Origin: Oscillospiraceae bacterium
GTDB lineage: Bacteria > Bacillota > Clostridia > Oscillospirales > Oscillospiraceae
NCBI GenBank assembly: GCA_902787755.1
Contig: CADAHL010000013.1
Location: 1-50,923, forward strand
Direction: 5' to 3'
Length of the DNA stretch: 50,923 nt
The notes under the pieces are model-generated. The model saw only the letters and a program-made list of their open reading frames with translations. It had not been told where the DNA came from and did no database searches. Positions within the stretch are counted from its first letter, which is position 1. Each line of letters begins with the position of its first letter. The translations under genes were made by a program, and so were the position numbers. This document shows, in pieces, positions 9,000 through 22,361 of this stretch.

Positions 9000-10706
9000 T
9001 TACTTCCGGTTGGGGATGTGGATGGCCTTCTTGTCCACGGCCAGAGCCGCCTCCCGCACCGCCTCGGCCACCGTGGGGTGGCAGTGGATGGTGTTGGTGA
9101 ACTCCTCCAGGGTAGCCTCCAGGCGGATGGCCAGGGCGGCCTCCTCGATGAGCTCGGTGGCGCTGGGGGCCAGAATGTGCACGCCCAGGATCTCGCCGTA
9201 TTTGGCTCCGGCCAGAACCTTGATCATGCCGTCGGTATGGCCGGCCACCAGGCTGCGGCCGTTGCCGCTGGTGGGGAACTTGCCCACCTTGTAATCCAGG
9301 CCCAGCTCCTTGGCCCGCTCCTCAGTGAAGCCCACGCCCGCAAACTCCGGACCCACATAGGCGCAGGAGGGACTCTGCTCGGCAAAGAAGCTCCGATCGC
9401 CGCCCATGGCGTTTTCAGCCGCGGTCTCGCCCATGGCCATGGCCGCGTGGGCCAGCATCAGCTTGCCGGTGCAGTCGCCGATGGCGTACACGCCGGGCAC
9501 GTTGGTCTCCATCTTCTCGTTGGTCTGGATGAAGCCCTTCTCCACCGCGATCCCGGCCTTGTCCAGGCCCAGATGAGCTGTGGCGGGACCCCGGCCCACG
9601 CAGACCAGGATCTTCTCGGCCTCATAGCTCTTCTCGCCCTCGGGAGTCTTCACCCCGACCTTGGCACCCTTGGCGGTGTCAGAGACGGAGACCACCTGGG
9701 AATTGAGCAGGATCTCCATGCCCTCGCCGGCCAGCTTATGCTGCAGCAGACCAGTGAGCTCGCCGTCCATGCCGGGCAGCAGCTTGGGCTGCATCTCCAC
9801 CACGGTGACCTTGGCGCCGTAGCGCCGATACACGCTGCCCAGCTCCAGGCCGATGACGCCGCCGCCGATGACCAGCAGGCTCTCGGGGATATGATCCAGC
9901 TCCAGGCAGCCGGTGGAATCCAGCAGGGCCTTGCTGTCCTTCAGCCCGGGAATGCCGGGGATAATAGGATAGGAGCCCGCGGCGATGATGATCTTGTCGG
10001 CCGTGTACTCGTCGGCGCCTACCTTCACGGTCTTGGGGCCGGTGAACACCGCCTCGCCCGCCACGACTTTGACCTTATTGGCCTTGCACAGAGCCCGGAC
10101 GCCGGAGGTCAGCTTCTCCACGGTGGCGGCCCGGAAGCCCTGGACCTTCTCCCAGTCCACCCGCACATCCACGCCCAGGATGCCGATATCGGCGCTCTGG
10201 GTGGCGGCGGCATAGACCTCGGAGGCGTGGAGCATGGCCTTGGTGGGCATGCAGCCCCGGTTCAGGCAGGTGCCGCCCACCTTGTCCTTCTCGATCAGCG
10301 TGACCTTGGCGCCCAGCTGGGCCGCCCGGATGGCGGCCACATAGCCGCCGGGGCCGCCGCCGATGACCAGCACCGAACCGCTCTCGGCCTTGGCCGCCTC
10401 TTTCACCGCCGGGGCTGCTGCCGGGGCGGGAGCCTGGGCGGACGCGGGAGCGTCGGGGAGCTTTTCACCGGGCTGGCCGATCCAGCCCACCAGGGTCTTG
10501 CAGGGGACGGTCTCCCCTTCTTTTACCAGGATCTTCAGCAGCACGCCGTCACACTCAGCCTCCACGTCGTTGGTCAGCTTATCGGTGGCTACGGCATAGA
10601 CGATCTCGCCCTTCTGAACAGGGTCGCCCTCTTTTTTCTTCCACTCGTCGATGGTACCCTCGGTCATGGTCAGGCCGAGCTTCGGCATCAGTAATTCAGT
10701 TGCCAT
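9000..10706 (-). CDS. lpdA: Dihydrolipoyl dehydrogenase (E3) with N-terminal lipoyl domain
   Basis: A 568-residue flavoprotein that reoxidises the dihydrolipoyl groups of a 2-oxo acid (or acetoin) dehydrogenase complex with NAD. Residues 1-78 form a lipoyl domain (modified lysine K43 in ATDKLTND), followed by an Ala/Pro-rich hinge to about 108. The E3 body then starts with VLVIGGGPGGYVAAIRAAQ. The redox disulfide is C147/C152 in GGTCLNRGCMPTKAML, the NAD fold contains VIGGGVIGLELGSVY, and the C-terminal catalytic pair lies in HCHPTVAEAVREA. It is the last gene of the operon, 15 bases after E2. Its lipoyl domain is nearly identical to that of E2 in DNA sequence. Confidence 0.93.
   Translation of the reverse strand: MATELLMPKLGLTMTEGTIDEWKKKEGDPVQKGEIVYAVATDKLTNDVEAECDGVLLKILVKEGETVPCKTLVGWIGQPGEKLPDAPASAQAPAPAAAPAVKEAAKAESGSVLVIGGGPGGYVAAIRAAQLGAKVTLIEKDKVGGTCLNRGCMPTKAMLHASEVYAAATQSADIGILGVDVRVDWEKVQGFRAATVEKLTSGVRALCKANKVKVVAGEAVFTGPKTVKVGADEYTADKIIIAAGSYPIIPGIPGLKDSKALLDSTGCLELDHIPESLLVIGGGVIGLELGSVYRRYGAKVTVVEMQPKLLPGMDGELTGLLQHKLAGEGMEILLNSQVVSVSDTAKGAKVGVKTPEGEKSYEAEKILVCVGRGPATAHLGLDKAGIAVEKGFIQTNEKMETNVPGVYAIGDCTGKLMLAHAAMAMGETAAENAMGGDRSFFAEQSPSCAYVGPEFAGVGFTEERAKELGLDYKVGKFPTSGNGRSLVAGHTDGMIKVLAGAKYGEILGVHILAPSATELIEEAALAIRLEATLEEFTNTIHCHPTVAEAVREAALAVDKKAIHIPNRK
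10468..10706 (-). repeat. Lipoyl-domain direct repeat, copy 1 (lpdA)
   Basis: This 239-base stretch encodes the first 79-80 residues of lpdA. It aligns without gaps to 11827-12065 at the start of the E2 gene, with about 13 differences counted by hand, mostly at third codon positions. Confidence 0.85.
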
Positions 10707-10721
10707 TTTTCCTAAATCTCC

Positions 10722-12065
10722 TTACGCCAGCATTAAGGCGGGGTTCTCCATCAGGGCCTTCACCCGCTGCAGGAACTGGGCCGCCACAGAGCCGTCCACC
10801 ACCCGGTGGTCGGCGGTCAGGCTCAGATTCATGATGGGACGGATGACCATCTCGCCGTTACGGACGACCACCTTGTCCTCCATGGTGTTCACGCCCAGGA
10901 TCGCCACCTCGGGCTGATTGATGATGGGCGTAAAGCTCTCGATGCCGTACATACCCAGGTTGGTGATGGTGAAGGTGCCGCCCTGGAGCTTCTCCGGGGG
11001 CAGCTTGCCCTCCCGGGCCAGCTTGGCCAGCTCCTTGACCTCGGCGGAGATCTGGGTCAGGCTCTTCTTGTCGGCGTCCTGGATATTGGGCACCACCAGG
11101 CCGTTGTCCAGCGCCACGGCCACGCCCATGTTCACATAGTGCTTGTAGATGATCTTATTGTCCTGTACCGAGCAGTTGAGCAGCGGGAACTCGGTCAGGG
11201 CCTTGGCCACGAACTTCACCAGCAGATCGGTGTAGCTGACCTTGATCTCCTTGGCCTTGAGCTGCTCGCGATAGCGCTTCATCTCGCTCATGTCGATGCC
11301 CAGGTTGAAGGTGACGGTGGGAGAGGTCTGCACGGAGGCCAGCATGTTCCGGGCGATGGCCTTGCGCATGCCGCTCATGGGCTTGACCTCTTCTCTGGCA
11401 GGCTCGGCCTCGGCCTTCTCCCGGGTCTCGGCCAGGTAAGCCAGGATGTCCTCGGCCAGCACTCTGCCGTGGGCGGCCTTGACCGCGCTGAGGTCCACGC
11501 CCAGATCGCCGGCCAGCTTGGCGGCCAGCGGGGAGGCCTTCACGGTCTCGGCGGCGGGAGCGGTCTGTGCGGTCTCGGCGGGGGCGAAGCCCAGCACGTC
11601 CCTGGCCACCACGACGCCCTTGTAGCCGGTGGCGGGGATGGCGCTCAGCTCGAAGCTCTTCTCCCTGGCCAGCTTCTTGGCGTAGGGAGTGGCGGGCACG
11701 TAGGCGCCGGCAGGTCTTCCCACGGCGGCAGGCGCGGAGGCGGCGACTGCTTCGGCGGCCTTGGCGGGCTCACCGGCAGGGGCGGCGGCAGCGGGAGCCG
11801 CGCCGGCGGCGCCGGGGACGGCCTCGCCGGGCTGGCCGATCCAGCCCACCAGGGTCTTGCAGGGGACGGTCTCCCCTTCCTGCACCAGGATCTTCAGCAG
11901 GACGCCGTCGCACTCGGCCTCCACGTCGTTGGTCAGCTTATCGGTGGCAACGGCATAGATGATCTCGCCCTTCTGAACGGGGTCGCCCTCTTTTTTCTTC
12001 CACTCATCAATGGTGCCCTCGGTCATGGTCAGACCGAGCTTCGGCATCAGTAATTCAGTTGCCAT
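10722..12065 (-). CDS. Dihydrolipoamide acyltransferase (E2) of a 2-oxo acid/acetoin dehydrogenase complex
   Basis: A 447-residue core enzyme that accepts the acyl group from E1 on a swinging lipoyl arm and passes it to coenzyme A. Order: lipoyl domain 1-78 (K43); Ala/Pro linker; peripheral subunit-binding domain about 124-160 (TPYAKKLAREKSFELSAI); a second similar segment about 177-210 (SPLAAKLAGDLGVDLSAV); catalytic domain 228-447 with DHRVVDG near the end (H420 and D424, the CAT-type active site). The second binding-like domain lacks the usual Gly-Thr-Gly turn. The neighbours (E1alpha, E1beta, E3, lipoate ligase) make the complex complete. Acyl specificity is unknown: acetyl if the substrate is pyruvate or acetoin. 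Confidence 0.92.
   Translation of the reverse strand: MATELLMPKLGLTMTEGTIDEWKKKEGDPVQKGEIIYAVATDKLTNDVEAECDGVLLKILVQEGETVPCKTLVGWIGQPGEAVPGAAGAAPAAAAPAGEPAKAAEAVAASAPAAVGRPAGAYVPATPYAKKLAREKSFELSAIPATGYKGVVVARDVLGFAPAETAQTAPAAETVKASPLAAKLAGDLGVDLSAVKAAHGRVLAEDILAYLAETREKAEAEPAREEVKPMSGMRKAIARNMLASVQTSPTVTFNLGIDMSEMKRYREQLKAKEIKVSYTDLLVKFVAKALTEFPLLNCSVQDNKIIYKHYVNMGVAVALDNGLVVPNIQDADKKSLTQISAEVKELAKLAREGKLPPEKLQGGTFTITNLGMYGIESFTPIINQPEVAILGVNTMEDKVVVRNGEMVIRPIMNLSLTADHRVVDGSVAAQFLQRVKALMENPALMLA
11827..12065 (-). repeat. Lipoyl-domain direct repeat, copy 2 (E2 gene)
   Basis: Partner of the 10468-10706 copy, about 1.36 kb apart in the same orientation. It starts at the ATG of E2 and stops where the hinge sequences diverge. 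Confidence 0.85.
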
Positions 12066-12086
12066 ATTCGTCCTCCTTCGGCGGCC

Positions 12087-13061
12087 TCAGAGCACGCCTT
12101 TGATGCCCTTGACCAGATCCTCGGGATACACCCGGTACAGCTTCTCCAGTGTGGGGGCGAAGGGGATGGGCGTGAAGGGAGCGCCGTAGCGCAGGATGGG
12201 GGCGTCCAGATACTCCAGCGCCTCCTCGGCCACCACCGCGGCCACCTCGGCCAGGGCGCCGCCCTGCTTGACGCACTCGGACACCAGGCACAGGCGATGG
12301 GTCTTCTTCACGGAATTGATGACCGTCTCCTTATCCCAGGGGGACAGGGTAATGAGGTCGATGACCTCGGCCTGGATGCCGTCCTTGGCCAGCAGATCCG
12401 CAGCGGCCCGGGCGTTCTTCATGCCGATGGAGTAGGACACGATGGTCACGTCCTTGCCCTCCCGCTCCACGCGGGCCTTGCCGATCTCATAGGGGACCTC
12501 GTCCTCCTTCTCGGGGACCTCGCCGGTCTCCTTGTACAGGACCTTGTTCTCAAAGTACAGGACGGGATCGTCGCTCTCGATGGCGGCCTTCAGCACCATC
12601 TTGGCATCGTAGGGATTGGAGGGAGCCACGACCTTGATGCCGGGGATGTGGATGAACCAGCTCTCCACGCTCTGGGAGTGCTGGGCGGCGCCGCCGCCGG
12701 CCAGACCGTCGGGCGCGCGCAGGACCAGGGGGATCCGGGCCTGGCCGCCGAACATGTAGCGGACCTTGGCCATCTGGTTGAAGACCTCGTCCATCGCAAC
12801 GCCGATGAAGTCGGCAAAGTGCATATCCACCACGGGACGGGCGCCGGCCAGAGCCGCGCCTACGCCGCCGCCGACGATGAAGGTCTCAGAGATCGGGGTA
12901 TCGATGACCCGGCCGGGGAACTCGGCGGGCAGGCCCTTGAACTGGCCGAAGATACCGCCCTGGCGGGCAATGTCCTCGCCCATGACAAAGCATTCCGGGT
13001 ACTTTTCCATTTCCTCGGCCATGGCCTCACGGGTGGCTTCGGAGAACGTGATCTTACGCAT
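12087..13061 (-). CDS. Thiamine-dependent dehydrogenase E1 component, beta subunit
   Basis: A 324-residue partner of the E1alpha subunit. Together they decarboxylate or cleave the substrate on thiamine diphosphate and acylate the lipoyl arm of E2. Family motifs: the N-terminal EAMAEEMEKYPECFVMGEDI, then GRVIDTPISETFIVGGGVGAALAGARPV, MHFADFIGVAMDEVFNQMAK and HSQSVESWFIHIPGIKVVAPS. The last third is the transketolase C-terminal domain (DVTIVSYSIGMKNA; HRLCLVSE). It resembles AcoB and PdhB, which sequence reading alone does not separate. GGGAGGTG precedes its ATG, and it sits 15 bases after E1alpha. Confidence 0.93.
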   Translation of the reverse strand: MRKITFSEATREAMAEEMEKYPECFVMGEDIARQGGIFGQFKGLPAEFPGRVIDTPISETFIVGGGVGAALAGARPVVDMHFADFIGVAMDEVFNQMAKVRYMFGGQARIPLVLRAPDGLAGGGAAQHSQSVESWFIHIPGIKVVAPSNPYDAKMVLKAAIESDDPVLYFENKVLYKETGEVPEKEDEVPYEIGKARVEREGKDVTIVSYSIGMKNARAAADLLAKDGIQAEVIDLITLSPWDKETVINSVKKTHRLCLVSECVKQGGALAEVAAVVAEEALEYLDAPILRYGAPFTPIPFAPTLEKLYRVYPEDLVKGIKGVL

Positions 13062-13076
13062 AATTCGGCACCTCCC

Positions 13077-14060
13077 TTAGTCTGCATACACGTCGGTGAG
13101 GAACTCGGACTCCTCCGGGTACTCACAGGCGACGGCAAATTCCTTGGCCTTCTTGATCTTCTCCCGGGCGCCGGCCAGGATCTGGTCCAGCTCCTCCTGG
13201 GTAAACTCAACGCCCTCGGGCAGCTGAGTGGGGAAGATCTTCAGGGGATCGGTGCGATGGAAGATCTCCATGGTCTCTTCCTTCTTGCGGTACAGCTCCG
13301 GGTCGCCCACGAAGTGGCCCTCGATGCGGTAGGTCTTGGCCTCGATGAAGGTGGGACCCTCGCCCCGGCGGGCTCTGGCCACGGCCTCGACGGCGGCCTG
13401 GTAGACCTCGAAGACGTTCTGGCCGTCGACGATCACGCCGGGCATGTTGTAGCCCTTGGCCCGGTCGGAGATATTCTCCACAGCGGTGGTGGTGCGGTAG
13501 GGTGTGGTGGAGGCCCAGCAGTTCATCTCGTTGACGAAGATGACGGGCAGCTTCCAGGCGGCAGCCACGTTGGCGGCCTCATGGAAGGTACCGCGGTTGG
13601 AGGCGCCGTCGCCGAAGAAGACCACGGACACGGTGTCGTTCTTCAGGATCATTTTATTGGCGAGGGCCGCGCCGGTGGCCAGGTTGTAGCCGCCGCCCAC
13701 CACGCCGTTGGCGCCCAGCATGCCCACGGAGAAGTCCGCAATGTGCATGCTGCCGCCCTTGCCGTGGCACAGGCCGTCCTTCTTGCCGAAGACCTCCGCC
13801 ATCATCCGGTTCACGTCGGCGCCCTTGGCGATGCAGTGGCCGTGGCCGCGGTGGGTGGACTCGATCAGGTCGGTGTCCCGCAGGGCCGCGCAGATGCCGG
13901 TGCCGATGGCCTCCTCGCCGATGTACAGGTGCACAAAGCCGGGGATCTCGCCGTTGAGGAAGTCGTGCTTCACGCTCTCCTCAAAGCAGCGGATGGTGCA
14001 CATGGTCTCGTAGAACTTTTTCGCTTGTTCCTTGGTAATGGATTCAGGCAATGTTCTCAC
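13077..14060 (-). CDS. Thiamine-dependent dehydrogenase E1 component, alpha subunit (AcoA/PdhA-like)
   Basis: A 327-residue thiamine diphosphate-binding subunit. The cofactor motif starts at GDG (150-152, in FFGDGASNRGTFHEAANVA) and ends at N180 in VNEMNCWA, where the usual Asn-Asn pair reads Met-Asn. Upstream, HRGHGHCIAKGAD (about 70-82) and HGKGGSMHIADF resemble acetoin dehydrogenase E1alpha more than classical pyruvate dehydrogenase, and the short length also fits the acetoin/branched-chain group. The real substrate is uncertain: TRAP import suggests a carboxylate, while the MDR dehydrogenase in the opposite operon could supply a ketone. Fourth intact enzyme gene of the minus-strand operon. 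Confidence 0.92.
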   Translation of the reverse strand: MRTLPESITKEQAKKFYETMCTIRCFEESVKHDFLNGEIPGFVHLYIGEEAIGTGICAALRDTDLIESTHRGHGHCIAKGADVNRMMAEVFGKKDGLCHGKGGSMHIADFSVGMLGANGVVGGGYNLATGAALANKMILKNDTVSVVFFGDGASNRGTFHEAANVAAAWKLPVIFVNEMNCWASTTPYRTTTAVENISDRAKGYNMPGVIVDGQNVFEVYQAAVEAVARARRGEGPTFIEAKTYRIEGHFVGDPELYRKKEETMEIFHRTDPLKIFPTQLPEGVEFTQEELDQILAGAREKIKKAKEFAVACEYPEESEFLTDVYAD

Positions 14061-14081
14061 ACCTTTCTGTAGAATTCAAAT

Positions 14082-14558
14082 TTATTCCTGACGCGGGGAC
14101 AGGAGAAAGACCTCCATCTCCGGGTCGAACTTACGAAGCATATGAACGCCCTCGATCTCACCGATGACGATATCCGCCGTCATCAGGACCCTGGTGCCCT
14201 CCACCAGATGGCCTCCGTGGGCGTTGCCGTACTTGTCGCTCATGCTGATGTGCACATGCAGATTGATGTTTCCCTCGTCGTCTGAGCAGATGACGCCCGA
14301 GGCGCCGGTCAGCTCGATGGGCCCGTCCAGGTACAGGACCTGACCGTAGCCGTAACCGGCCTTCTTGTCCGGCAGAGCCTCCACGTTGCAGTAGTGCACG
14401 CCGTTAAGGCTGCCGATGGCGCTGAGTATGGCGCCGTTATGGATCTGATATCGCTCGCAGGCGGCCTGCATCCCCTTGAGAAGATCCGTGCCGGGCTTCA
14501 GCCGCAGGACCACCGTGCGGCCCAGCCGCCCCTGGGCGGAAAGGATCTGTTCCTCCAT
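14082..14558 (-). CDS. PPC (DUF296) domain protein
   Basis: A 158-residue single-domain protein of the plant/prokaryote-conserved fold (DUF296). Visible features are TVVLRLKPGTDLLKGMQAACERYQI, then NGAILSAIGSLNGVHYCNVE, the GxxxLTGASG-like PIELTGASGVIC and the histidine-bearing NLHVHISMSDKYGNAHGGHL. In plants this domain is fused to AT-hooks, but bacterial versions lack them and form trimers of unknown role; the clustered histidines suggest a metal or ligand site. I set the start at 14558 because GGGGAGGAAG lies just upstream; the reading frame continues further upstream with no ribosome binding site. It lies between the transporter and E1alpha genes, which suggests a role in the same pathway. 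Confidence 0.85.
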   Translation of the reverse strand: MEEQILSAQGRLGRTVVLRLKPGTDLLKGMQAACERYQIHNGAILSAIGSLNGVHYCNVEALPDKKAGYGYGQVLYLDGPIELTGASGVICSDDEGNINLHVHISMSDKYGNAHGGHLVEGTRVLMTADIVIGEIEGVHMLRKFDPEMEVFLLSPRQE

Positions 14559-14584
14559 CTGGACTTCCTCCCCTTTTCGGTATG

Positions 14585-14597
14585 CTGGTCCTACCAG
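14585..14597. promoter_or_regulatory. FCD/GntR operator candidate inside the catabolic operon
   Basis: CTGGTCCTACCAG is a perfect palindrome around CCT, lying 27 bases upstream of the PPC gene start. It matches the core TGGTCCTACCA of the site at 17685-17697. I see no convincing promoter beside it, so it could act as a roadblock or an auxiliary site. Confidence 0.55.
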
Positions 14598-14609
14598 ACC
14601 AGGCGGGGA

Positions 14610-14641
14610 ATATGCCCTGCGGGAGATCCCGCAGGGCATAT
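14610..14641 (-). promoter_or_regulatory. Long perfect inverted repeat after dctP (attenuator or weak terminator)
   Basis: Arms ATATGCCCTGCGGGA and TCCCGCAGGGCATAT (15 bp, perfect) directly follow the dctP remnant. The T-run needed for termination is missing on the minus strand (ATTCCCC follows), so partial termination or mRNA end protection between transporter and enzyme genes is more likely. Confidence 0.5.
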
Positions 14642-14658
14642 CAAGGTTTTTCTGAGAA

Positions 14659-15715
14659 TTACTTGCCGGTGAACACGCCGATCAGGCTGTCCATCTCTTC
14701 CTGGGTGAAGCCGTAATCCTTCACGCAGGTGGCGGCCCACTCGTCGGCCACGTTGGCGGAAGCGGCCTGGAACTCCTTGACCTGCTCGTCGGTCAGGTAG
14801 GTGAAGGTCACGCCCTCGTTGGTCCACTTCTCAATAACTTCCTGGTCGCCCTTACGCTCCAGCTCACGCTGCTGGGCCGCGGCCCAGGCGCCGGCCTCGT
14901 CCACCAGAGCCTGCAGCTCGGCGGGCAGGGAGTCATACAGCTCCTGGTTCATGCAGAAGAAGATGCAGTCGTACACGCCGGTCCAGTAGGTGCAGTACTT
15001 GTTGACGTCGGAGATGGAGCCGCCGTCAGCGGTGGGCAGGGGGTTCTCCTGGCCGTCGTAGGTGCCCTGCTGCAGGCCGGTGTAAACCTCGCCCCAGTTG
15101 GCGGGGGATACGGATCTTCATATCCTTCATGTCGGCGGGAGAGGTGATCTCCTTCTTGCTGTTGGTGACATGACGGAAGCCGTTCTCGGCAACACCCAGC
15201 AGGTGCAGGCCCAGACCCTCAACGATGGGAGCCAGAGCCTCGTAGCCGGCGCCGCCGGCGCCCAGCAGAGCGTCAACGTCATCGGTGGACTCAAAGATGA
15301 AGGGCAGGGAGACCACGTTCAGTCTCTGGTCAAAGCCGGACATGATCAGGTTGGAGTGGGCGCACATATCGGTGGAGCCGTCGATCACAGCCTGGATGCC
15401 CTCCTGCTGGTTGCCGGAGGTCAGCTGGTCCTGAGCATACACGGTAACGGTGACCTTGCCGCCGGTGCGGTCGGACAGGTACTGGCCGAACTGACGGCCC
15501 ATATCGGCCCAGCAGGTGTTGTCGGTGGCGGAGCAGGCGAACTTCCAGTCGTAGCTCTGATCGAGCTGGATGACGCCGTCAGCGGGAGCTTCAGCGGCGG
15601 GGGCATCGTTGCCGGCAGCGGGAGCCTCGGCAGCGGGAGCGGCAGACTGACCACCGCAGGCGGCCAGAGCCAGAACCATGGCCAGAGCCATAAGCAGCGC
15701 TAAGAACTTTTTCAT
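14659..15715 (-). pseudogene. dctP: TRAP transporter substrate-binding protein DctP, frameshifted with internal deletion
   Basis: The extracytoplasmic solute-binding lipoprotein of the transporter, broken as written. The 5' part (from 15715) has a lipoprotein signal (LALAACGG), an Ala/Glu-rich tether and normal DctP sequence up to MKDMKIRIP. At about 15101-15107, a run of five G (C on the coding strand), the frame shifts. The old frame ends at 15026 after nonsense residues. In another frame the family sequence resumes with NWGEVYTGLQQGTYDGQENP and continues to 14659. About 18 residues usually found between these parts (the LGANPTPM region) are absent, so this is a deletion plus shift, not just one extra base. 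It may be a true lesion or an assembly error. Confidence 0.85.
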
Positions 15716-15781
15716 TTTCTTCCTCCTAAAATGATTTTTTATCTGAGATCACAACAGGTGTGAAGACAGTACGGATGGATT

Positions 15782-17086
15782 TCAGCGGCCCAGCAGGACC
15801 ATGCTGAAGAAGGGGACGTAGGTGATCAGCAGCAGAGCGACCACACAGGAGATGATCATGGGCCAGACCGCGCCGGAGATGCTGGCGATGGTGACCCGGG
15901 TCTTATCCTTCAGATCCTTCATCTTTTCGGCCAAGCCGATAGCCACGAACAGGTTCACGCCCACCGGCGGGGTCACCTGACCGATGGCCAGGTTCACGGT
16001 GGCGATGATGCCGAAGTGGACCAGATCGATCCCCAGCTGCTGGGCTACGGGAGCCATGATGGGGATGAAGATATACATGGCGGAGTTGGCGTCCACAAAG
16101 CAGCCGGCGATCAGGAAGATGATGTTGATGATGATCAGGAACACATACTTGTTGCCGGACACGTTCAGCAGCAGAGTCTGGGCGGCCTTGGAGATGCCGT
16201 GGACGGTGCAGACATAGGAGAACACGGCGGCGGTGCCGATGATGAGCATGATGGAGCCGGTGGTCTTGCCGGAGTCCACCATGATCTTGATGAAGTTCTT
16301 GATCTTGATCTCCCGGTAGATGAAGATGCCGACCACCAGGGCGTAGACCACGGACACGGCCGCGGCCTCGGTCGGGGTGAAGACGCCGCCGTAGATGCCG
16401 CCCAGGATGATGACCGGGACCAGGAAGCCCCACATGGCCTCCAGGAAGGTCTTGCCCCGGTGCTTCCAGGTGGAGCGCTCCCGGGTGGCGGTGATGCCTC
16501 TGCGTCGGACCTCGATCCAGACGATGACGATCAGGGCCAGACCCATCATGATGCCGGGGATGATACCGGCCATGAACATATCGCCCACGCCCACGCCGGT
16601 AATGGAGGCGTAGACCACGAAGGCGATGGAGGGCGGGATGACGATGGCGATGGACGAGGCCGCCGCCATCAGCGCCGAGGCGAAGGGGGCGGAGAAGCCG
16701 CCGGAGTTGACCATGGCGGGGATCAGGATGATGCCCAGAGCGGCCACAGTGGCCGGGCCGGAGCCGGAGATGGCGCCGAAGAACATGGCCACGATGACGC
16801 AGACGATGGCGATGCCGCCCTTCTGGTGGCCCACGCAGTCGTCAATAAAGCCGACCAGGCGCTTGGAGATGCCCGCCTCGGCCATGACGTTGCCGGAGAT
16901 GACAAAGAAGGGGATGGCCAGCAGCAGGAACTTGGACATGCCGTTGTACACATTTGTGGGGATGACGGAGAGCTTGTCGTGGCCGAAGACCATGGCCAGC
17001 ACGGAGGACAGGCCCAGGCTCACGGCGATGGGGGCGTTGAGAAGCAGCAGGATGAAGAAGCTGCCGAACAGAATAAAGTTGATCAT
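15782..17086 (-). CDS. dctM: TRAP transporter large permease DctM
   Basis: A 434-residue integral membrane subunit that carries out sodium-coupled uptake of an organic acid delivered by the binding protein. It has the family pattern of 11-12 hydrophobic segments, with NAPIAVSLGLSSVLAM near the start, the LAIPFFVISGNVMAEAGIS segment, GAISGSGPATVAALG, FTPTEAAAVSVVYALVVG and GQVTPPVGVNLFVAIG near the end. It overlaps dctQ by four bases. Ligand identity cannot be read from the permease. Confidence 0.95.
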   Translation of the reverse strand: MINFILFGSFFILLLLNAPIAVSLGLSSVLAMVFGHDKLSVIPTNVYNGMSKFLLLAIPFFVISGNVMAEAGISKRLVGFIDDCVGHQKGGIAIVCVIVAMFFGAISGSGPATVAALGIILIPAMVNSGGFSAPFASALMAAASSIAIVIPPSIAFVVYASITGVGVGDMFMAGIIPGIMMGLALIVIVWIEVRRRGITATRERSTWKHRGKTFLEAMWGFLVPVIILGGIYGGVFTPTEAAAVSVVYALVVGIFIYREIKIKNFIKIMVDSGKTTGSIMLIIGTAAVFSYVCTVHGISKAAQTLLLNVSGNKYVFLIIINIIFLIAGCFVDANSAMYIFIPIMAPVAQQLGIDLVHFGIIATVNLAIGQVTPPVGVNLFVAIGLAEKMKDLKDKTRVTIASISGAVWPMIISCVVALLLITYVPFFSMVLLGR

Positions 17087-17613
17087 TCCGCAGGCTCCTC
17101 CTTTCCTTTTTCCTTGGGATCCTTCATGCAGGAGGCCTGCTCGGTCAGGATCGCCAGCAGGTATTCCACGCTGTGCAGGATCAGCAGCAGGCAGCCCAGG
17201 GGGATGGCCGCCATAAACAGGCCCTCGGGGATCAGCAGCGAGGCGGTGAGCTTGCCCTGCTTGAACAGCACCAGGACCTTCTCCCAGCCGGTCCAGCCCA
17301 GAACGCCGTAGAAGATGCAGCTGACCACGGTGAAGATAACGCCGATGACCTTCTTGCCGGTCTTGCCCACGGAGTCAAAGACCAGCGACAGGCTGATCAG
17401 GCTCCCGTCCCTGGCACACAGGGCACAGCCGCACATGATCATCAGCACGAAGATGTTGACCACCAGCTCCTCGGTGTAGGCCAGCTTGCTGTGGAACACA
17501 TAGCGGGCCAGAACGTTGGCGAAGGCGACCACGGTGATCACGATCCCGATAATGACCTGCATGGCCGATTCCACGTAGCCCAGGATATCCATGATCTTTT
17601 TATATACTTTCAT
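17083..17613 (-). CDS. dctQ: TRAP transporter small permease DctQ
   Basis: A 176-residue four-helix membrane subunit that pairs with DctM. Features: VIIGIVITVVAFANVLARYVFHSKLAYTEEL region in helices 1-2 and MIMCGCALCARDGSLISLSLVFD, the usual charged loop. ATG 17613 is chosen over an in-frame ATG 90 bases upstream because AGGAAAGGA precedes it and the product then starts like other DctQ proteins. It is the first gene of the minus-strand catabolic operon; the promoter and operator lie 70-120 bases upstream. Confidence 0.92.
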   Translation of the reverse strand: MKVYKKIMDILGYVESAMQVIIGIVITVVAFANVLARYVFHSKLAYTEELVVNIFVLMIMCGCALCARDGSLISLSLVFDSVGKTGKKVIGVIFTVVSCIFYGVLGWTGWEKVLVLFKQGKLTASLLIPEGLFMAAIPLGCLLLILHSVEYLLAILTEQASCMKDPKEKGKEEPAE

Positions 17614-17684
17614 AGCACCATTCCTTTCCTCAGGATTCCGCCTCCCGAGGCAGAAGATATTCCCCTTCGGCGGTGGATTGGCTT

Positions 17685-17697
17685 TTGGTCCTACCAA
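17685..17697. promoter_or_regulatory. PdhR/LldR-like operator at the TRAP operon start site
   Basis: TTGGTCCTACCAA is a perfect palindrome around CCT. It fits the ATTGGTnnnACCAAT pattern known for PdhR and related FCD-type GntR regulators. It occupies about +1 to +13 of the transcript predicted from the promoter at 17703-17731, the classic position for repression. The likely binder is the FCD regulator at 19782. Confidence 0.7.
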
Positions 17698-17702
17698 CTG
17701 CA

Positions 17703-17731
17703 ATTCTACAACTTTCTGAAGCGTCCTGCAA
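17703..17731 (-). promoter_or_regulatory. Sigma-A promoter of the TRAP/E1-E2-E3 operon
   Basis: On the minus strand: TTGCAG (17731-17726), 17 bp, TAGAAT (17708-17703). Its start point falls on the operator. Confidence 0.65.
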
Positions 17732-17771
17732 GCGCATTAGCCTCGGCAAAAGAGCGAAAAACGCCGGCTCT

Positions 17772-17791
17772 TTTTGTGAGTTTTCACAAAA
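17772..17791. promoter_or_regulatory. Second palindrome in the divergent control region
   Basis: TTTTGTGA-GTTT-TCACAAAA is a perfect inverted repeat about 40 bp upstream of the minus-strand minus-35. The arms resemble CRP or Rex half-sites, but the four-base spacer is wrong for both. The 344-base spacer 17614-17957 holds this site, two operator-like sites and two promoters but no gene. Confidence 0.45.
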
Positions 17792-17863
17792 GTCACAGAA
17801 AATGTCCCGGAATAACAGGGTTCCTTCGCCATATTGCCAAAAAATTCACTTGGATTTTGGTTG

Positions 17864-17876
17864 ATGGTAGGGCCAA
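17864..17876. promoter_or_regulatory. Degenerate FCD/GntR operator upstream of the plus-strand operon
   Basis: On the minus strand TTGGCCCTACCAT, two changes from TTGGTCCTACCAA. It ends seven bases before the minus-35 of the plus-strand promoter, so one regulator could touch both operons. Confidence 0.4.
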
Positions 17877-17882
17877 AAAGGA

Positions 17883-17911
17883 TTGCCATCGCCGGGAAAA
17901 AGGGTTACAAT
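17883..17911 (+). promoter_or_regulatory. Sigma-A promoter of the plus-strand operon
   Basis: TTGCCA (17883-17888), 17 bp, TACAAT (17906-17911). The first gene starts at 17958. Confidence 0.6.
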
Positions 17912-17957
17912 CGAAGAGGAAATATCTCTGCCCCTTCGGGCAGATCGGAGGCTGTGT

Positions 17958-18155
17958 ATGATCGTCATTCAGGCTCCCGGACTGGGAGAATATCAGATCG
18001 ACGGCGAGAAAGAGGTCGAGGCCGCCCGCGTTTTTGACGAGGGTTATACCCGGCTGTGCCGGGACAGCGGCGACGGAGACAGTCTGCTCTGGGAGCTGGC
18101 CGCCCTGCGCAGAGAGATCATCGGCGAATATGGCGTCCGCATCACGCTCGTCTGA
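17958..18155 (+). CDS. Small hypothetical protein, first gene of the ligase/regulator operon
   Basis: A 65-residue soluble protein I do not recognise (MIVIQAPGLGEYQIDGEKEV at the start, ALRREIIGEYGVRITLV at the end). It begins with a beta-strand-like segment and continues as charged helices. GGAGG lies six bases before ATG 17958, and a promoter lies at 17883-17911. It overlaps the next gene by 26 bases. The position at the head of the operon and the good ribosome binding site argue for a real gene, but function is unknown. Confidence 0.6.
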   Translation: MIVIQAPGLGEYQIDGEKEVEAARVFDEGYTRLCRDSGDGDSLLWELAALRREIIGEYGVRITLV

Positions 18156-18753
18156 AAAGGCGCCCAGGCTCTACTGCCTGGGGGACAGCCTGACCTTCGG
18201 CTATGGGGTCTCCCCCGCCCGGCGCTGGCTGACCCTGGTCACGGAGGCCGGCCCCTGGCGGCTGATGAACCGGGGCCTGTGCGGGGACACCACCGGCGGC
18301 ATGCTGGTGCGGCTGCGGGAGCTGCTGAACGGCTCGCCCCGGCCGGAGCAGGTGCTGCTCTTCGGCGGCGCCAACGACATCTTCTATTCCGGCACCGACG
18401 CCGGGGCCCGGGCCAACATGGGCGCCATGATCCACCAGCTGCTCACCGCCGGGGTGCGGCCCCTGGTGGGCATCCCCATGCCCATCGTACCGGACTGGTC
18501 CCCGGAGGCCTGGGGCGCGGTGGTGGATTTTGAGGCGGCCCAGGCGCTGCTGGGCTCCTATGCCGACTGGACGGAGGCCTTCTGCCGGGCTTTCGGGGTG
18601 CCCACGGTGGATTTCCGCTCGGTGTTTCTGGATGAGAGCGGCCAGGTCCGGCGGGAGCTGTATCTGGACGGGCTGCACCCCAACCCGGAGGGGCACCGGC
18701 GCATGGCGGAGCTGCTGGCGAAGCGGCTGAGGGAGCTGGAGGCGGTGGGATGA
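18130..18753 (+). CDS. SGNH/GDSL-type hydrolase
   Basis: A 207-residue esterase or acyl hydrolase, probably cytoplasmic since no signal peptide is visible. All four family blocks are present: GDSLTFGYG with nucleophile S20, the oxyanion glycine in block II (NRGLCGDTTGG), GGANDIF with N82, and DGLHPNPEGH with the D180/H183 pair. ATG 18130 overlaps the previous gene by 26 bases; later starts would cut into the GDSL block. It overlaps lplA by four bases. Its substrate is unknown; in this setting it could free an acid from an ester for the pathway, which is conjecture. Confidence 0.85.
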   Translation: MASASRSSEKAPRLYCLGDSLTFGYGVSPARRWLTLVTEAGPWRLMNRGLCGDTTGGMLVRLRELLNGSPRPEQVLLFGGANDIFYSGTDAGARANMGAMIHQLLTAGVRPLVGIPMPIVPDWSPEAWGAVVDFEAAQALLGSYADWTEAFCRAFGVPTVDFRSVFLDESGQVRRELYLDGLHPNPEGHRRMAELLAKRLRELEAVG

Positions 18754-19751
18754 ACGAGCTTCTGTATCTGGACCTGACAGGCACCGACGCCGCCCGGAAT
18801 CTGGCCACGGAGGAGCTGGTCTTCGACCGGCTGCCCGAGGGGAAGACCCTTTTCATGCTCTGGCAGAACCGCTCGGCGGTGATCATCGGAAAATATCAGA
18901 ACACCCTGGCGGAGATCGACCTGGACTACGTGCGGGCGCAGGGCATTCAGGTGGTGCGGCGCCTGTCCGGCGGCGGGGCGGTCTACCACGACCTGGGGAA
19001 TCTGAACTACACCATCATCACCCGGGCCAAGGATCCCGCCCGGCTGGACCTGGCCCTGTTCTGTCAGCCGGTGCTGCGGACCCTGCGTCAGCTGGGGGTG
19101 CCGGCGGAGCTGAACGGCCGCAACGACATGAGCATCCTGGGGCAGAAGTTCTCCGGCAACGCCCAGTACATGCGCCGGGGCAAGGTGATGCACCACGGCA
19201 CCATCCTCTTCGATTCGGATCTGTCGGTGGTGTCCCGGGCTCTGCGGGTGGATCCGGAGAAGATCCGGGCCAAGGGCGTGGGATCCGTGCGCAGCCGGGT
19301 GACCAATGTGCGGCCCCATCTGAAGAGCGATCTGAGCCTGCCGGAATTTCGGGCCAGGCTCCTGGAAAATCTGCTGCAGGACAGCCCCGGCCAGGCCTGG
19401 GAGCTGAACGAGGAAGAGCTGGCGGCCATCGAGGCCCTGCGGGAGAGCCGCTATGACAGCTGGGACTGGAACTTCGGCGCCTCCCGGGAGTGCTCCCTGC
19501 TCCGGCGGAGGCGGATCGAAGGCTGCGGCACGGTGGAGGCCCGGATCAGCCTGGAGCACGGGCTCATTACCGGCCTGGACTTCCGGGGCGATTTCTTCAG
19601 TCTGGAAGAGCCGGAGGTCCTGGCCCGCCGCTTTCTGGGCCTGCGCCCGGAGCGGGACGCCTATGCCGGGGCCCTGGGGGACGTGGACGTGTCCCGGTAC
19701 TTCCTGGGCCTGGACGCCCCGGGCCTGATCGATCTGCTGTGCGAAAGCTGA
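18750..19751 (+). CDS. lplA: Lipoate--protein ligase
   Basis: A 333-residue enzyme that activates lipoate with ATP and attaches it to the lysine of lipoyl domains. The motifs RRLSGGGAVYHDLGNLNYT, GRNDMSILGQKFSGNAQ and HHGTILFDSDLS are the lipoate-binding loop, lysine loop and adenylate pocket. The C-terminal accessory domain begins near residue 245. The acceptors are very likely the two lipoyl domains (E2 and E3) in the opposite operon. It overlaps the SGNH gene by four bases, and the regulator gene starts 30 bases after its stop. Confidence 0.93.
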   Translation: MNELLYLDLTGTDAARNLATEELVFDRLPEGKTLFMLWQNRSAVIIGKYQNTLAEIDLDYVRAQGIQVVRRLSGGGAVYHDLGNLNYTIITRAKDPARLDLALFCQPVLRTLRQLGVPAELNGRNDMSILGQKFSGNAQYMRRGKVMHHGTILFDSDLSVVSRALRVDPEKIRAKGVGSVRSRVTNVRPHLKSDLSLPEFRARLLENLLQDSPGQAWELNEEELAAIEALRESRYDSWDWNFGASRECSLLRRRRIEGCGTVEARISLEHGLITGLDFRGDFFSLEEPEVLARRFLGLRPERDAYAGALGDVDVSRYFLGLDAPGLIDLLCES

Positions 19752-19781
19752 ATTCGAATCATAAATATGGACGGTGATGGC

Positions 19782-20483
19782 ATGGAAGTGAGCTTTGACA
19801 AGATCCGGCAGTCCTCCCCCACGGTGCCGGAGCTGGTGATGGACAGCCTGATGGCTGCCATCGAGGCGGGCAAGCTCCAGGTGGGCGGCGAGCTGCCCCC
19901 CGAGCGGGATCTGGCGGAGGCCTTGGGCATCTCCCGCAATTCCCTGCGGGAATGTCTGTCGATCATGAGCTTCATGGGGATCGTGGAGAACCGGGGCAAC
20001 CGGAAGGTGCTGGTGAAGAACGCGGATTATTTCCGCAAGGCCCGGTCCCTGCTGGAGCTGTCCTATTCTCCGGACACCTTTGAGGACTTTATGGAGTTCC
20101 GGCGCACCAACGAGCGGGAGATCGCCCGGCTGGCCTGCCGCCGGGCCACGCCGGAGGATCTGGAGCGGCTGAAGAACTCGGTGGAGCGGCTGGAGGCCGA
20201 CGCCACGGACTATCTGGCGGACGTGGAGTTCCATGTGAACCTGGCCTACGCCAGCCACAACACCATCTTTGCGGCCATGCTGGACTACGTCAACTGCCTG
20301 ATCCTGGAGCTGCGGATGCGCTTCTTCGAGCGGGAGGACTACCACGGCAAGACCGCCCAGGCCCACCGGCGGATCTACGAGGCGGTGCTGGCCCGGGACG
20401 AGGAGCTGGCCGCCTACGAGATGGGCCGGCACCTGCGGATCATTGAAAACTACGAGGAGCCGAAAGGAGAGGAGCCCACATGA
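19782..20483 (+). CDS. FadR/FCD-subfamily GntR transcriptional regulator
   Basis: A 233-residue ligand-responsive regulator. The N-terminal winged helix-turn-helix contains GGELPPERDLAEALGISRNS followed by LRECLSIMSFMGIVENRGNR. The C-terminal FCD domain is all-helical (FMEFRRTNEREIARLACRRA; DVEFHVNLAYASHN; AHRRIYEAVLARDE), with Asp and His residues that in relatives bind a metal and a carboxylate ligand. I prefer ATG 19782, which has GGTGAT directly before it, over an ATG 15 bases upstream with no such signal. The PdhR-like palindromes at 17685 and 14585 are its most likely targets, giving local, substrate-induced control. It overlaps the dehydrogenase gene by four bases. Confidence 0.9.
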   Translation: MEVSFDKIRQSSPTVPELVMDSLMAAIEAGKLQVGGELPPERDLAEALGISRNSLRECLSIMSFMGIVENRGNRKVLVKNADYFRKARSLLELSYSPDTFEDFMEFRRTNEREIARLACRRATPEDLERLKNSVERLEADATDYLADVEFHVNLAYASHNTIFAAMLDYVNCLILELRMRFFEREDYHGKTAQAHRRIYEAVLARDEELAAYEMGRHLRIIENYEEPKGEEPT

Positions 20484-21526
20484 GCCAAACCATGCGCGGG
20501 ATCATCAAAGCGGCGGCGGGCCCCGGTCTGGAGTTTCGGACCGATCTGCCCATCCCCCAGATCGGCGAGGACGAGGTGCTGATGAAGATCCGCTGCGCCT
20601 CCATCTGCGGCACGGACCTGGGCATCGACGCCTGGGGCGCCTGGGCCCGGAAGCGGATGACCGTCTTCCCCCGGATCATCGGTCACGAGACCACCGGCGA
20701 GATCGTCGCCGTTGGCAAAAACGTGAAGGAGCGCTTCGTGGGCCAGCGGGTCTCGGTGGAGAGCCACATCTGGTGCGGCAAGTGTCCCCACTGCCTGGCG
20801 GGGCGGCCCCATGTGTGCCAGAACATGACTCTCTTCGGCATCCAGACCGACGGCGCCTTCGCCGAGTACGCCAAGGCCCGCTGGGACATCACCTACGTTC
20901 TGGACGAGGCCCTCTCCGATGAGCAGGGCTGTATCTTCGAGCCCATGGGCTCCGGCGTCCACGGCGTGGAGGAGGCCAAGGTCAAAGGCAAGACCGTGCT
21001 GGTGGCCGGCTGCGGCGCCATCGGCCTGACGGTGGTGGCGGCCTGCAGGGTCTTCGGCGCCAGGCTCATCATCGCCTGCGACCTCTATGACGAGAAGCTG
21101 GAGGCGGCCCGGGCCATGGGCGCGGATGTGACCGTGAACAGCCGGAGGGAGAATCTGGTGTCCAAGGTACTGGAGCTGACGAATGGGCTGGGCGTGGAGG
21201 CCGCCATCGACGTGACCGGCAGCCCCGCCGCCCTGAACAGCTCCCTGAAGAGCGTGATGGCCATGGGCTGCCTGGTCTCGGTGGGTCTGCCCGGCGAGCC
21301 GGTGACCATGGACATGACCGAGGATCTGTTCTATCGGCAGATCCGCCTGTCCGGCATCTGCGGAAGGCGGATCTGGGAGACCTGGGACGACTTCACCCGG
21401 GTCATGCGGGACCCCATCTACGACATGAGGCGGGTCATCGGCGGACAGTTTGCGCTGGAGGATTTCCGCCAGGGCATCGACAAAATGCGCTCCGGCGCCC
21501 CGGGCAAGATGTTCCTGTATCCCTGA
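20480..21526 (+). CDS. Zinc-dependent MDR dehydrogenase, L-threonine 3-dehydrogenase-like
   Basis: A 348-residue NAD(P)-dependent alcohol dehydrogenase of the medium-chain family. Catalytic zinc ligands are C43 (SICGTD), H69 and E70 (GHETTGEIVAVG); structural zinc ligands are C99, C102, C105 and C113. The nucleotide fold starts at VLVAGCGAIGLTVVAA. Several stretches read like threonine 3-dehydrogenase (ICGRRIWETWDDF near the end; DEVLMKIRCASICGTD at the start), but butanediol and sugar-acid dehydrogenases share the fold. Beside an acetoin-type E1/E2/E3 system it probably oxidises a hydroxyl group to give the keto substrate of E1. Last gene of the plus-strand operon. Confidence 0.88.
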   Translation: MSQTMRGIIKAAAGPGLEFRTDLPIPQIGEDEVLMKIRCASICGTDLGIDAWGAWARKRMTVFPRIIGHETTGEIVAVGKNVKERFVGQRVSVESHIWCGKCPHCLAGRPHVCQNMTLFGIQTDGAFAEYAKARWDITYVLDEALSDEQGCIFEPMGSGVHGVEEAKVKGKTVLVAGCGAIGLTVVAACRVFGARLIIACDLYDEKLEAARAMGADVTVNSRRENLVSKVLELTNGLGVEAAIDVTGSPAALNSSLKSVMAMGCLVSVGLPGEPVTMDMTEDLFYRQIRLSGICGRRIWETWDDFTRVMRDPIYDMRRVIGGQFALEDFRQGIDKMRSGAPGKMFLYP

Positions 21527-21650: not shown

Positions 21651-22361
21651 TCAATTCCCCATTGCCGCGGCCAGCGGGGCCAGGAGCAGCAGCCCCACGA
21701 TCGGAGCGCTGACCCAGGGCAGGGACCCCAGGGCCATCTGCAGACCGATGACCAGCAGGCCCGCCGCCATCCAGCAGATCCCGGCCGTCAGGTGGGTCCG
21801 GTCCCATCCGGTCTGGGAATAGCGGATTTTTTCCAGCCGGAAGCCCCAGCGGGAGTCCCGGGGCAGATCCAGAAAATGCCCGCCCAGGAGCAGAAGCAGC
21901 AGCCCCAGCACACAGGGCAGCAGAAAGCGCAGGTCCATCCGCTCTCCCGCGGCCCGGAGGATCCCCAGGCTGGAGAGGATCAGCGAAATGGGCGCGATGG
22001 TCCAGCGGCCCAGGACCCGGACGGGGGTGGGCGGCACCTTCATCGCCTTCTGGTGGACCCAGAGCTGGCCGTGGGTGATCAGATTCAGCACGCAGCCCAG
22101 GCCCGGCACGGCGAAGACCAGCATCGGCCGGGGCATGGAATCGTCCACACCGCCGGGGCCGATCAGCCCCGTCTCCACAAGGGCGGGGATCTGAGCCCAT
22201 AGCCGCAGGCCCAGCAGCATGGGAAGGGCGCAGCAAAGCGTGGTCCCCAGCACCGCGATCAGGGCCTTCCGGGGACTGACATGATGCCCGAAGCGCAGGC
22301 TGGCCGCCTGCTCCTGCTTTCGGGTCAGACCTTGTTTATTTTTCTTCTCTGTGTTGCTCAT
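21651..22361 (-). CDS. Hypothetical multi-pass membrane protein
   Basis: A 236-residue integral membrane protein with a short charged N-terminus (MSNTEKKNKQ) and about six hydrophobic segments, arranged roughly as three pairs. The pattern, with KVPPTPVRVLGRWTIAP in the middle and pairs of helices around it, recalls DUF1648/SdpI-type proteins, but I cannot confirm that. The predicted promoter puts the transcription start at or next to the ATG, and there is no ribosome binding site, so it may be translated from a leaderless mRNA. It is divergent from the esterase gene. Confidence 0.7.
   Translation of the reverse strand: MSNTEKKNKQGLTRKQEQAASLRFGHHVSPRKALIAVLGTTLCCALPMLLGLRLWAQIPALVETGLIGPGGVDDSMPRPMLVFAVPGLGCVLNLITHGQLWVHQKAMKVPPTPVRVLGRWTIAPISLILSSLGILRAAGERMDLRFLLPCVLGLLLLLLGGHFLDLPRDSRWGFRLEKIRYSQTGWDRTHLTAGICWMAAGLLVIGLQMALGSLPWVSAPIVGLLLLAPLAAAMGN

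Follow-up and report, generated by a model that had tools for sequence, protein, structure and literature searches.

The window analyzed here is the whole of contig CADAHL010000013.1 (50,923 nucleotides; contig C13 of the draft) from the Oscillospiraceae bacterium assembly GCA_902787755.1. Between positions 9,000 and 21,526 it carries genes for a tripartite ATP-independent periplasmic (TRAP) transporter, a thiamine-dependent E1 enzyme with its E2 and E3 partners, a PPC (DUF296) protein, a dehydrogenase, a lipoate ligase, and a regulator. These genes very probably make up a single conserved catabolic unit that the TRAP transporter supplies, in line with the catabolic island of an earlier note on this DNA: TRAP and E1 genes are linked in several phyla, and the gene content is kept together. 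The set, widely conserved and found here in a gut bacterium, probably pairs a carboxylic-acid importer with an acetoin-dehydrogenase-like enzyme and breaks down an imported hydroxy acid. More specifically, it may import a vicinal dihydroxy acid, oxidize it at C3, and split the product by oxidative, acyloin-type cleavage to acyl-CoA, a tentative reading that we consider plausible, if somewhat short of probable. Comparison supports the unit, the E1 clade, its residue differences, and the fold assigned to the PPC protein. The gene set was not found described in the open literature searched. Genes now loosely labelled as DctP TRAP transporter, DNA-binding PPC protein, or acetoin or pyruvate dehydrogenase would, on this reading, belong to a single conserved pathway whose substrate class can be tested.

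Conservation of the gene set

Genes were called with Pfam and NCBIfam profiles, and coordinates are window positions (Table 1). Conservation was followed in the best 80 of 566 confirmed E1-alpha matches from named genomes, split into 61 loci at least 57% identical and 19 next-best loci (individual loci carry L numbers). TRAP genes lie near E1-alpha in 51 of the 61 (DctM in 49, DctP in 48, either in 51) and in 31 of the 34 that are at least 18 kb long; in L104 and L106 the DctM match is a weak one, at 25% identity. Seven of the ten loci lacking TRAP genes are pieces shorter than 15 kb; the other three are long stretches (L091, L105, and L109), of which L091 has a DctP match at its extreme edge in one comparison, though it is counted as lacking TRAP. 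Among the 19 next-best loci TRAP occurs once, as a weak DctM match in L155 that supplies the 1/19 of the Fisher test.

PPC proteins occur in 21 of the 61 loci, and TRAP genes are present in all 21. Dehydrogenases of three families, namely medium-chain (MDR; 15 loci), short-chain (SDR; 13 loci), and beta-hydroxyacid dehydrogenases (beta-HADH), are found in 26 loci taken together. LplA, or families with LipA and LipB representatives, accompany 23 loci, and a sigma-54 regulator accompanies 17. The eight closest named loci (L085–L092) contain DctM, PPC, MDR, and FCD genes in seven cases each and LplA and SGNH genes in six each, with an SdpI-like membrane gene beside the set in seven. Ten other genomes of the tight group were fetched, and all ten have TRAP and E1-E2-E3 genes in the stretch. 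Pairwise E1 distances correlate with those of DctM (r = 0.54, 49 loci), DctP (0.63, 47 loci), PPC (0.92, 21 loci), and MDR (0.79, 15 loci), with none of 2000 shuffles as high, and also with those of LplA (0.58, 16 loci); these Mantel figures, like those of the Fisher test, ignore common descent, and vertical descent by itself can yield such correlations, a reservation that extends to the route proposed below.

It is the gene content that is conserved, and the head-to-head layout is local. In all six of the closest loci that have an SGNH gene, the block that holds it has the same orientation as the E1 operon, so the divergent arrangement described in the earlier note is not a shared feature. 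The possibility raised there that the two operons would not be conserved together is likewise not borne out, since the gene content stays together. Ester removal, suggested for the SGNH hydrolase, is not supported: the gene occurs in 7 of the 61 loci, and no signal peptide is seen by eye at its start.

The family-level distribution is patchy. An E1-alpha search of 400 genomes of the family gives matches at E ≤ 1e-60 in 39; identity of at least 75% is reached in nine, this one included, followed by a gap to 53%. Such patchiness, together with TRAP linkage across phyla, makes it extremely unlikely that the enzyme is a housekeeping pyruvate dehydrogenase with a transporter as its chance neighbor, the other outcome the earlier note had allowed for. 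A housekeeping role would suit an E1-alpha that is the sole full-length E1_dh match in the genome (three more are partial and weak), and the single-chain pyruvate:ferredoxin oxidoreductase family has no match above cut-off in this 92%-complete genome. Weak matches to parts of 2-oxoacid oxidoreductases lie elsewhere in the genome, which argues in the opposite direction, as does the E1-alpha score of 327.6 bits against TIGR03182, the pyruvate dehydrogenase E1-alpha equivalog, where the cut-off is 393.85.

The E1 clade and its probable pocket residues

Contiguous genes for E1-alpha, E1-beta, E2, and E3 recall acetoin dehydrogenase (AcoA/AcoB/AcoC/AcoL), and the E1-alpha shares about 51–52% identity with E1s whose loci include an annotated 2,3-butanediol dehydrogenase. 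The present system differs from acetoin dehydrogenase in its separate E1 branch, in three changed positions (alpha-184, alpha-251, and beta-81), in its TRAP transporter, and in a PPC gene in about a third of loci. The branch was recovered in a tree of 114 joined E1-alpha/E1-beta rows, 106 of them distinct (some genomes appear under two handles), built by a quick method and with a root that is not known. A branch with a Shimodaira–Hasegawa-like approximate likelihood ratio (SH-aLRT) support of 99 divides the tree into 78 rows, of which 67 come from TRAP loci, and 36 rows, of which 9 do, and the E1 of the window falls on the TRAP-linked side. A clade of 20 among the 36 rows, here called acetoin-type, has no TRAP genes and includes plasmid loci beside annotated 2,3-butanediol dehydrogenase genes.

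The residue comparison sets 72 rows of the TRAP-linked side against 19 of the 20 acetoin-type rows; set aside were a divergent subgroup of five rows and 18 others, namely 16 non-acetoin rows of the far side, the Thermus row, and the acetoin-clade member L158. Position alpha-184 is Ser in 72/72 TRAP-linked rows and Glu in 19/19 acetoin-type rows, alpha-251 is Val in 71/72 versus Glu in 19/19, and beta-81, which we take to line the substrate pocket, is His in 72/72 versus Met in 19/19. L158 has Glu at beta-81. The window E1 has Ser, Val, and His at these positions, with none of the acetoin-type residues, and the three positions may serve as markers of Aco function. With two acidic residues gone and a basic one gained, the enzyme would suit a substrate that, unlike neutral acetoin, carries an additional negative charge. 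In a set of 114 rows, made up of 113 pairs and Azospirillum with the window left out, His or Arg occupies beta-81 in 67 of 76 rows from TRAP loci and in 11 of 38 rows from TRAP-less loci; on the TRAP-linked side of the tree, too, 11 rows lack TRAP. Arg is found in the five-row subgroup and in Azospirillum. Because common ancestry accounts for the shared His within a single clade, the changes at beta-81 represent few independent events.

An ordinary acetoin/2,3-butanediol route, with the MDR as butanediol dehydrogenase and the TRAP transporter serving something else, would account for the identity to E1s of butanediol dehydrogenase loci and for the sigma-54 regulator that 17 of the 61 TRAP-type loci share with two butanediol dehydrogenase loci. 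Like the housekeeping reading it is unlikely, distinctly so given the separate branch, three positions unlike all 19 acetoin-type rows, TRAP linkage in 51 of 61 loci, and an MDR nearest to L-threonine dehydrogenase. The best solved relatives of this MDR are L-threonine 3-dehydrogenases, with common segments that include the zinc region and GRxxWETW; the protein differs in scoring below the Tdh equivalog cut-off. The genome has no match above cut-off to 2-amino-3-ketobutyrate CoA ligase. The suspicion voiced in the earlier note that the substrate may not be acetoin is strengthened by an E1 that stands apart from annotated acetoin/butanediol E1s, by differences at likely pocket positions, and by the TRAP linkage; acetoin is probably not the substrate.

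Two side observations concern related E1 sets. In L097, L100, and L102, a second E1-alpha/E1-beta/E2 set adjoins the TRAP-linked one, and the second E1 has Met at beta-81, as if two E1s of different substrates shared one locus. A related E1-E2-E3 set in L165, on a Sinorhizobium plasmid, stands with a sugar ABC transporter and a class II aldolase and is another transporter-linked E1 type.

Transport, the PPC protein, and the proposed route

DctQ, DctM, and DctP genes are all present in the window, the last in two pieces. Relative to the intact protein of L089, residues 199–215 of 361 are absent, the frame changes at 15101/15102, and the net loss is 53 nt. A search of the genome with the L089 protein returned only these two pieces and no other copy, and dctP is intact in the relatives aligned. 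The break may reflect a pseudogene or an assembly error, the latter being possible because the genome is an 86-contig draft. The system resembles typical TRAP transporters in its DctQ and DctM families and in the carboxylate triad of its relatives, and differs in its tie to an E1 complex and in the broken DctP of the window. The DctP alignment holds 43 of 55 proteins; second copies, fragments, and four divergent proteins of E1 loci (L094, L103, L117, and L122) were omitted. Arg174, Arg195, and Asn235 are invariant in the 43 intact proteins, an Arg/Arg/Asn spacing that matches the carboxylate triad of PMC11668362.

Among solved proteins, a profile of the 43 scores best with 4P8B (Ralstonia eutropha H16_A1328; nearest solved structure, 378 bits), ahead of the next at 278 and an isethionate-binding protein at 218. 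The ligand bound in 4P8B may name the substrate. In the binding-protein tree 4P8B joins an Azospirillum protein (98/73), and 7BBR, 4P47, 4P9K, and 4NQ8 group elsewhere; deep branches are unresolved, and the group of the window sits on a long branch. A plasmid collection contains relatives of 4P8B in Azospirillum (57–58%) and Thermus (about 49%). In the one Azospirillum and two Thermus loci fetched, DctP adjoins the genes for both E1 subunits; in Thermus a gene for a lipoyl protein lies between DctP and the E1 genes. Six alphaproteobacterial plasmid loci have DctP relatives that are 41–45% identical to L120 (Anaerovirgula multivorans) and about 30–35% to the window-type L089; they contain SDR (6/6), acyl-CoA synthetase (6/6), and annotated acetyl-CoA acetyltransferase (5/6) genes, with no annotated E1 in the stretch. 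A seventh, L175 (Sinorhizobium chiapasense), has neither E1 nor acyl-CoA synthetase.

The PPC protein is a single short domain of 160 residues. Structure alignments place it in the same fold as acetolactate decarboxylase at 11–15% identity; it lies outside that enzyme's sequence family, with PF03479 as its only match at E ≤ 0.001. R21, E84, H103, H105, and H119 are invariant in 21 aligned PPC sequences, an HxH...H pattern that makes the protein a candidate metalloenzyme. In the open literature searched, DUF296 is treated mostly in plant AHL proteins. If the metabolic role proposed here is true, a large family that is often labelled DNA-binding, and for which that literature gave no assigned activity, would gain a metabolic function. 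Four of the six plasmid loci have a PCC/DUF296 gene (by annotation or Pfam; Paracoccus by annotation alone), and its presence beside acyl-CoA synthetase in the absence of E1 argues against the PPC protein being only a decarboxylase. Proteins of about 270–280 residues lie beside acyl-CoA synthetase genes in L174 (4294–5139), L169 (4430–5245), and L171 (4390–5199); of these, one matches PCC at its C terminus, another carries the annotation DUF296, and the third has no Pfam match, and all three may be two-domain PCC proteins. As a separate observation, nine of the 61 loci, Oscillibacter-type and without PPC, encode a metallo-beta-lactamase-fold protein (weak PF12706; e.g., L073:4719–5426).

A vicinal dihydroxy acid is proposed as substrate class by an indirect argument: thiolase and E1 could both cut the C2–C3 bond of a 2-hydroxy-3-oxo acid, and enzymes resembling Tdh, butanediol dehydrogenase, and 2-hydroxy-3-oxopropionate reductase, each below its equivalog cut-off, could make that compound. 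In the proposed route, the TRAP transporter would take up a small carboxylate, the most likely class being vicinal (2,3-) dihydroxy acids. The C3 hydroxyl would then be oxidized by the dehydrogenase, which is the Tdh-like MDR in this genome and an SDR or beta-HADH in other loci. The product would be a 2-hydroxy-3-oxo acid, an acyloin with its carboxylate kept, which the PPC protein might isomerize or decarboxylate. The acetoin-dehydrogenase-like E1, of a dedicated clade, would with E2 and E3 cleave the bond beside the ketone and pass the acyl group to CoA, yielding acyl-CoA, NADH, and a 2-oxo acid or aldehyde. LplA would charge the lipoyl domains, and the FCD protein would regulate the set. 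In this scheme the substrate class, the order of steps, the chemistry of the PPC protein, and the regulation are inferred.

Several observations weigh against this route. No MDR, SDR, or beta-HADH family member is found in 35 of the 61 loci, and one is present in only 11 of the 21 PPC loci. In nine of the E1 rows from TRAP loci beta-81 is Met: seven are second E1 copies, and the other two are L155 and L082, the last despite its TRAP, PPC, and beta-HADH genes. The six plasmid loci pair TRAP with acyl-CoA synthetase instead of E1, and the Azospirillum stretch has E1-alpha and E1-beta with no annotated E2 or E3. With DctP disrupted, the transporter as assembled is broken too, and the route may be unavailable to this strain if the disruption is not an assembly error.

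The loci without a dehydrogenase of the three families would be easier to understand if the TRAP transporter imported a 2-oxo acid, or a 2-hydroxy acid oxidized to one, which the E1 complex decarboxylated directly to acyl-CoA like pyruvate or branched-chain dehydrogenases, with the PPC protein accessory or regulatory. E1-E2-E3 complexes ordinarily carry out oxidative decarboxylation, and a Thermus 2-oxo acid dehydrogenase has a polar Gln at the position that aligns with E1-beta His81. This alternative is unlikely, if serious: it leaves the dehydrogenases and the PPC protein unexplained, the E1 has about 50% identity to the acetoin-type rows, and the E1-alpha falls below the pyruvate dehydrogenase equivalog cut-off. 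Import and analogous cleavage of a vicinal diol that carries a sulfonate group, for example 2,3-dihydroxypropane sulfonate, is suggested by the isethionate-binding protein among the solved relatives and by an Azospirillum locus near sulfonate-uptake genes. It is very improbable given the 218 bits of the isethionate protein against 378 for 4P8B, and no sulfonate-lyase or desulfonating gene was noticed in the gene tables, in which no search was aimed at them. A broader form of the dihydroxy-acid route makes the TRAP-linked E1 a novel type of thiamine enzyme, an acyloin-carboxylate dehydrogenase acting on 2-hydroxy-3-oxo acids, with the PPC (DUF296) metalloenzyme on the same intermediate, in a pathway of Bacillota, Synergistota, and partly Pseudomonadota and Deinococcota; in that generality it is doubtful.

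Gene inventory and genome setting

The draft genome spans 2.54 Mb, and its nearest named relatives are metagenome-assembled genomes labelled Oscillospiraceae, Ruminococcaceae, or Eubacteriales, several of them ruminant-derived. Pfam and NCBIfam confirm the gene families listed in the earlier note, with the correction that DctP is not intact. Elsewhere the genome contains one further DctM and one GcvH.

Table 1. Genes of the TRAP-linked set and a neighboring gene, by window position
Feature	Position	Strand	Profile or other support
E3, dihydrolipoyl dehydrogenase carrying an N-terminal lipoyl domain	9000..10706	-	TIGR01350 513 bits (cut-off 409); PF00364
E2, lipoyl acyltransferase	10722..12065	-	PF00198, PF02817, PF00364
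E1-beta, TRAP-linked clade, His81	12087..13061	-	PF02779/PF02780
E1-alpha, TRAP-linked clade	13077..14060	-	PF00676 267 bits
PPC/PCC (DUF296) protein, candidate metalloenzyme	14082..14564	-	PF03479 89.3 bits (above gathering cut-off of 25)
DctP solute-binding protein, broken (C-terminal piece 14659-14976, N-terminal piece 15026-15715)	14659..15715	-	PF03480, both pieces
DctM, TRAP large permease	15782..17086	-	PF06808 378 bits; TIGR00786 above cut-off
DctQ, TRAP small permease	17083..17613	-	PF04290 102 bits
Small protein	17960..18155 (open reading frame 17883-18155)	+	62% match in L087
SGNH hydrolase	18130..18753	+	PF13472
LplA, lipoate-protein ligase	18750..19751	+	TIGR00545 367 bits (cut-off 280)
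GntR/FCD regulator	19767..20483	+	PF00392, PF07729
Zinc MDR dehydrogenase, L-threonine-3-dehydrogenase-like	20480..21526	+	TIGR00692 322.5 bits (below cut-off of 458.35)
SdpI-like membrane protein, probable associated gene (just beyond the set)	21651..22331	-	PF13630

For the small plus-strand reading frame, the ATG at 17960, chosen by eye, looks the likelier start, and a Pfam search with the frame gives no match. The lipoyl domains that open E3 (10470–10706) and E2 (11829–12065) are 97% identical over 79 residues, and the corresponding cross-matches in relatives are about 71–87%; recent gene conversion or duplication is likely.

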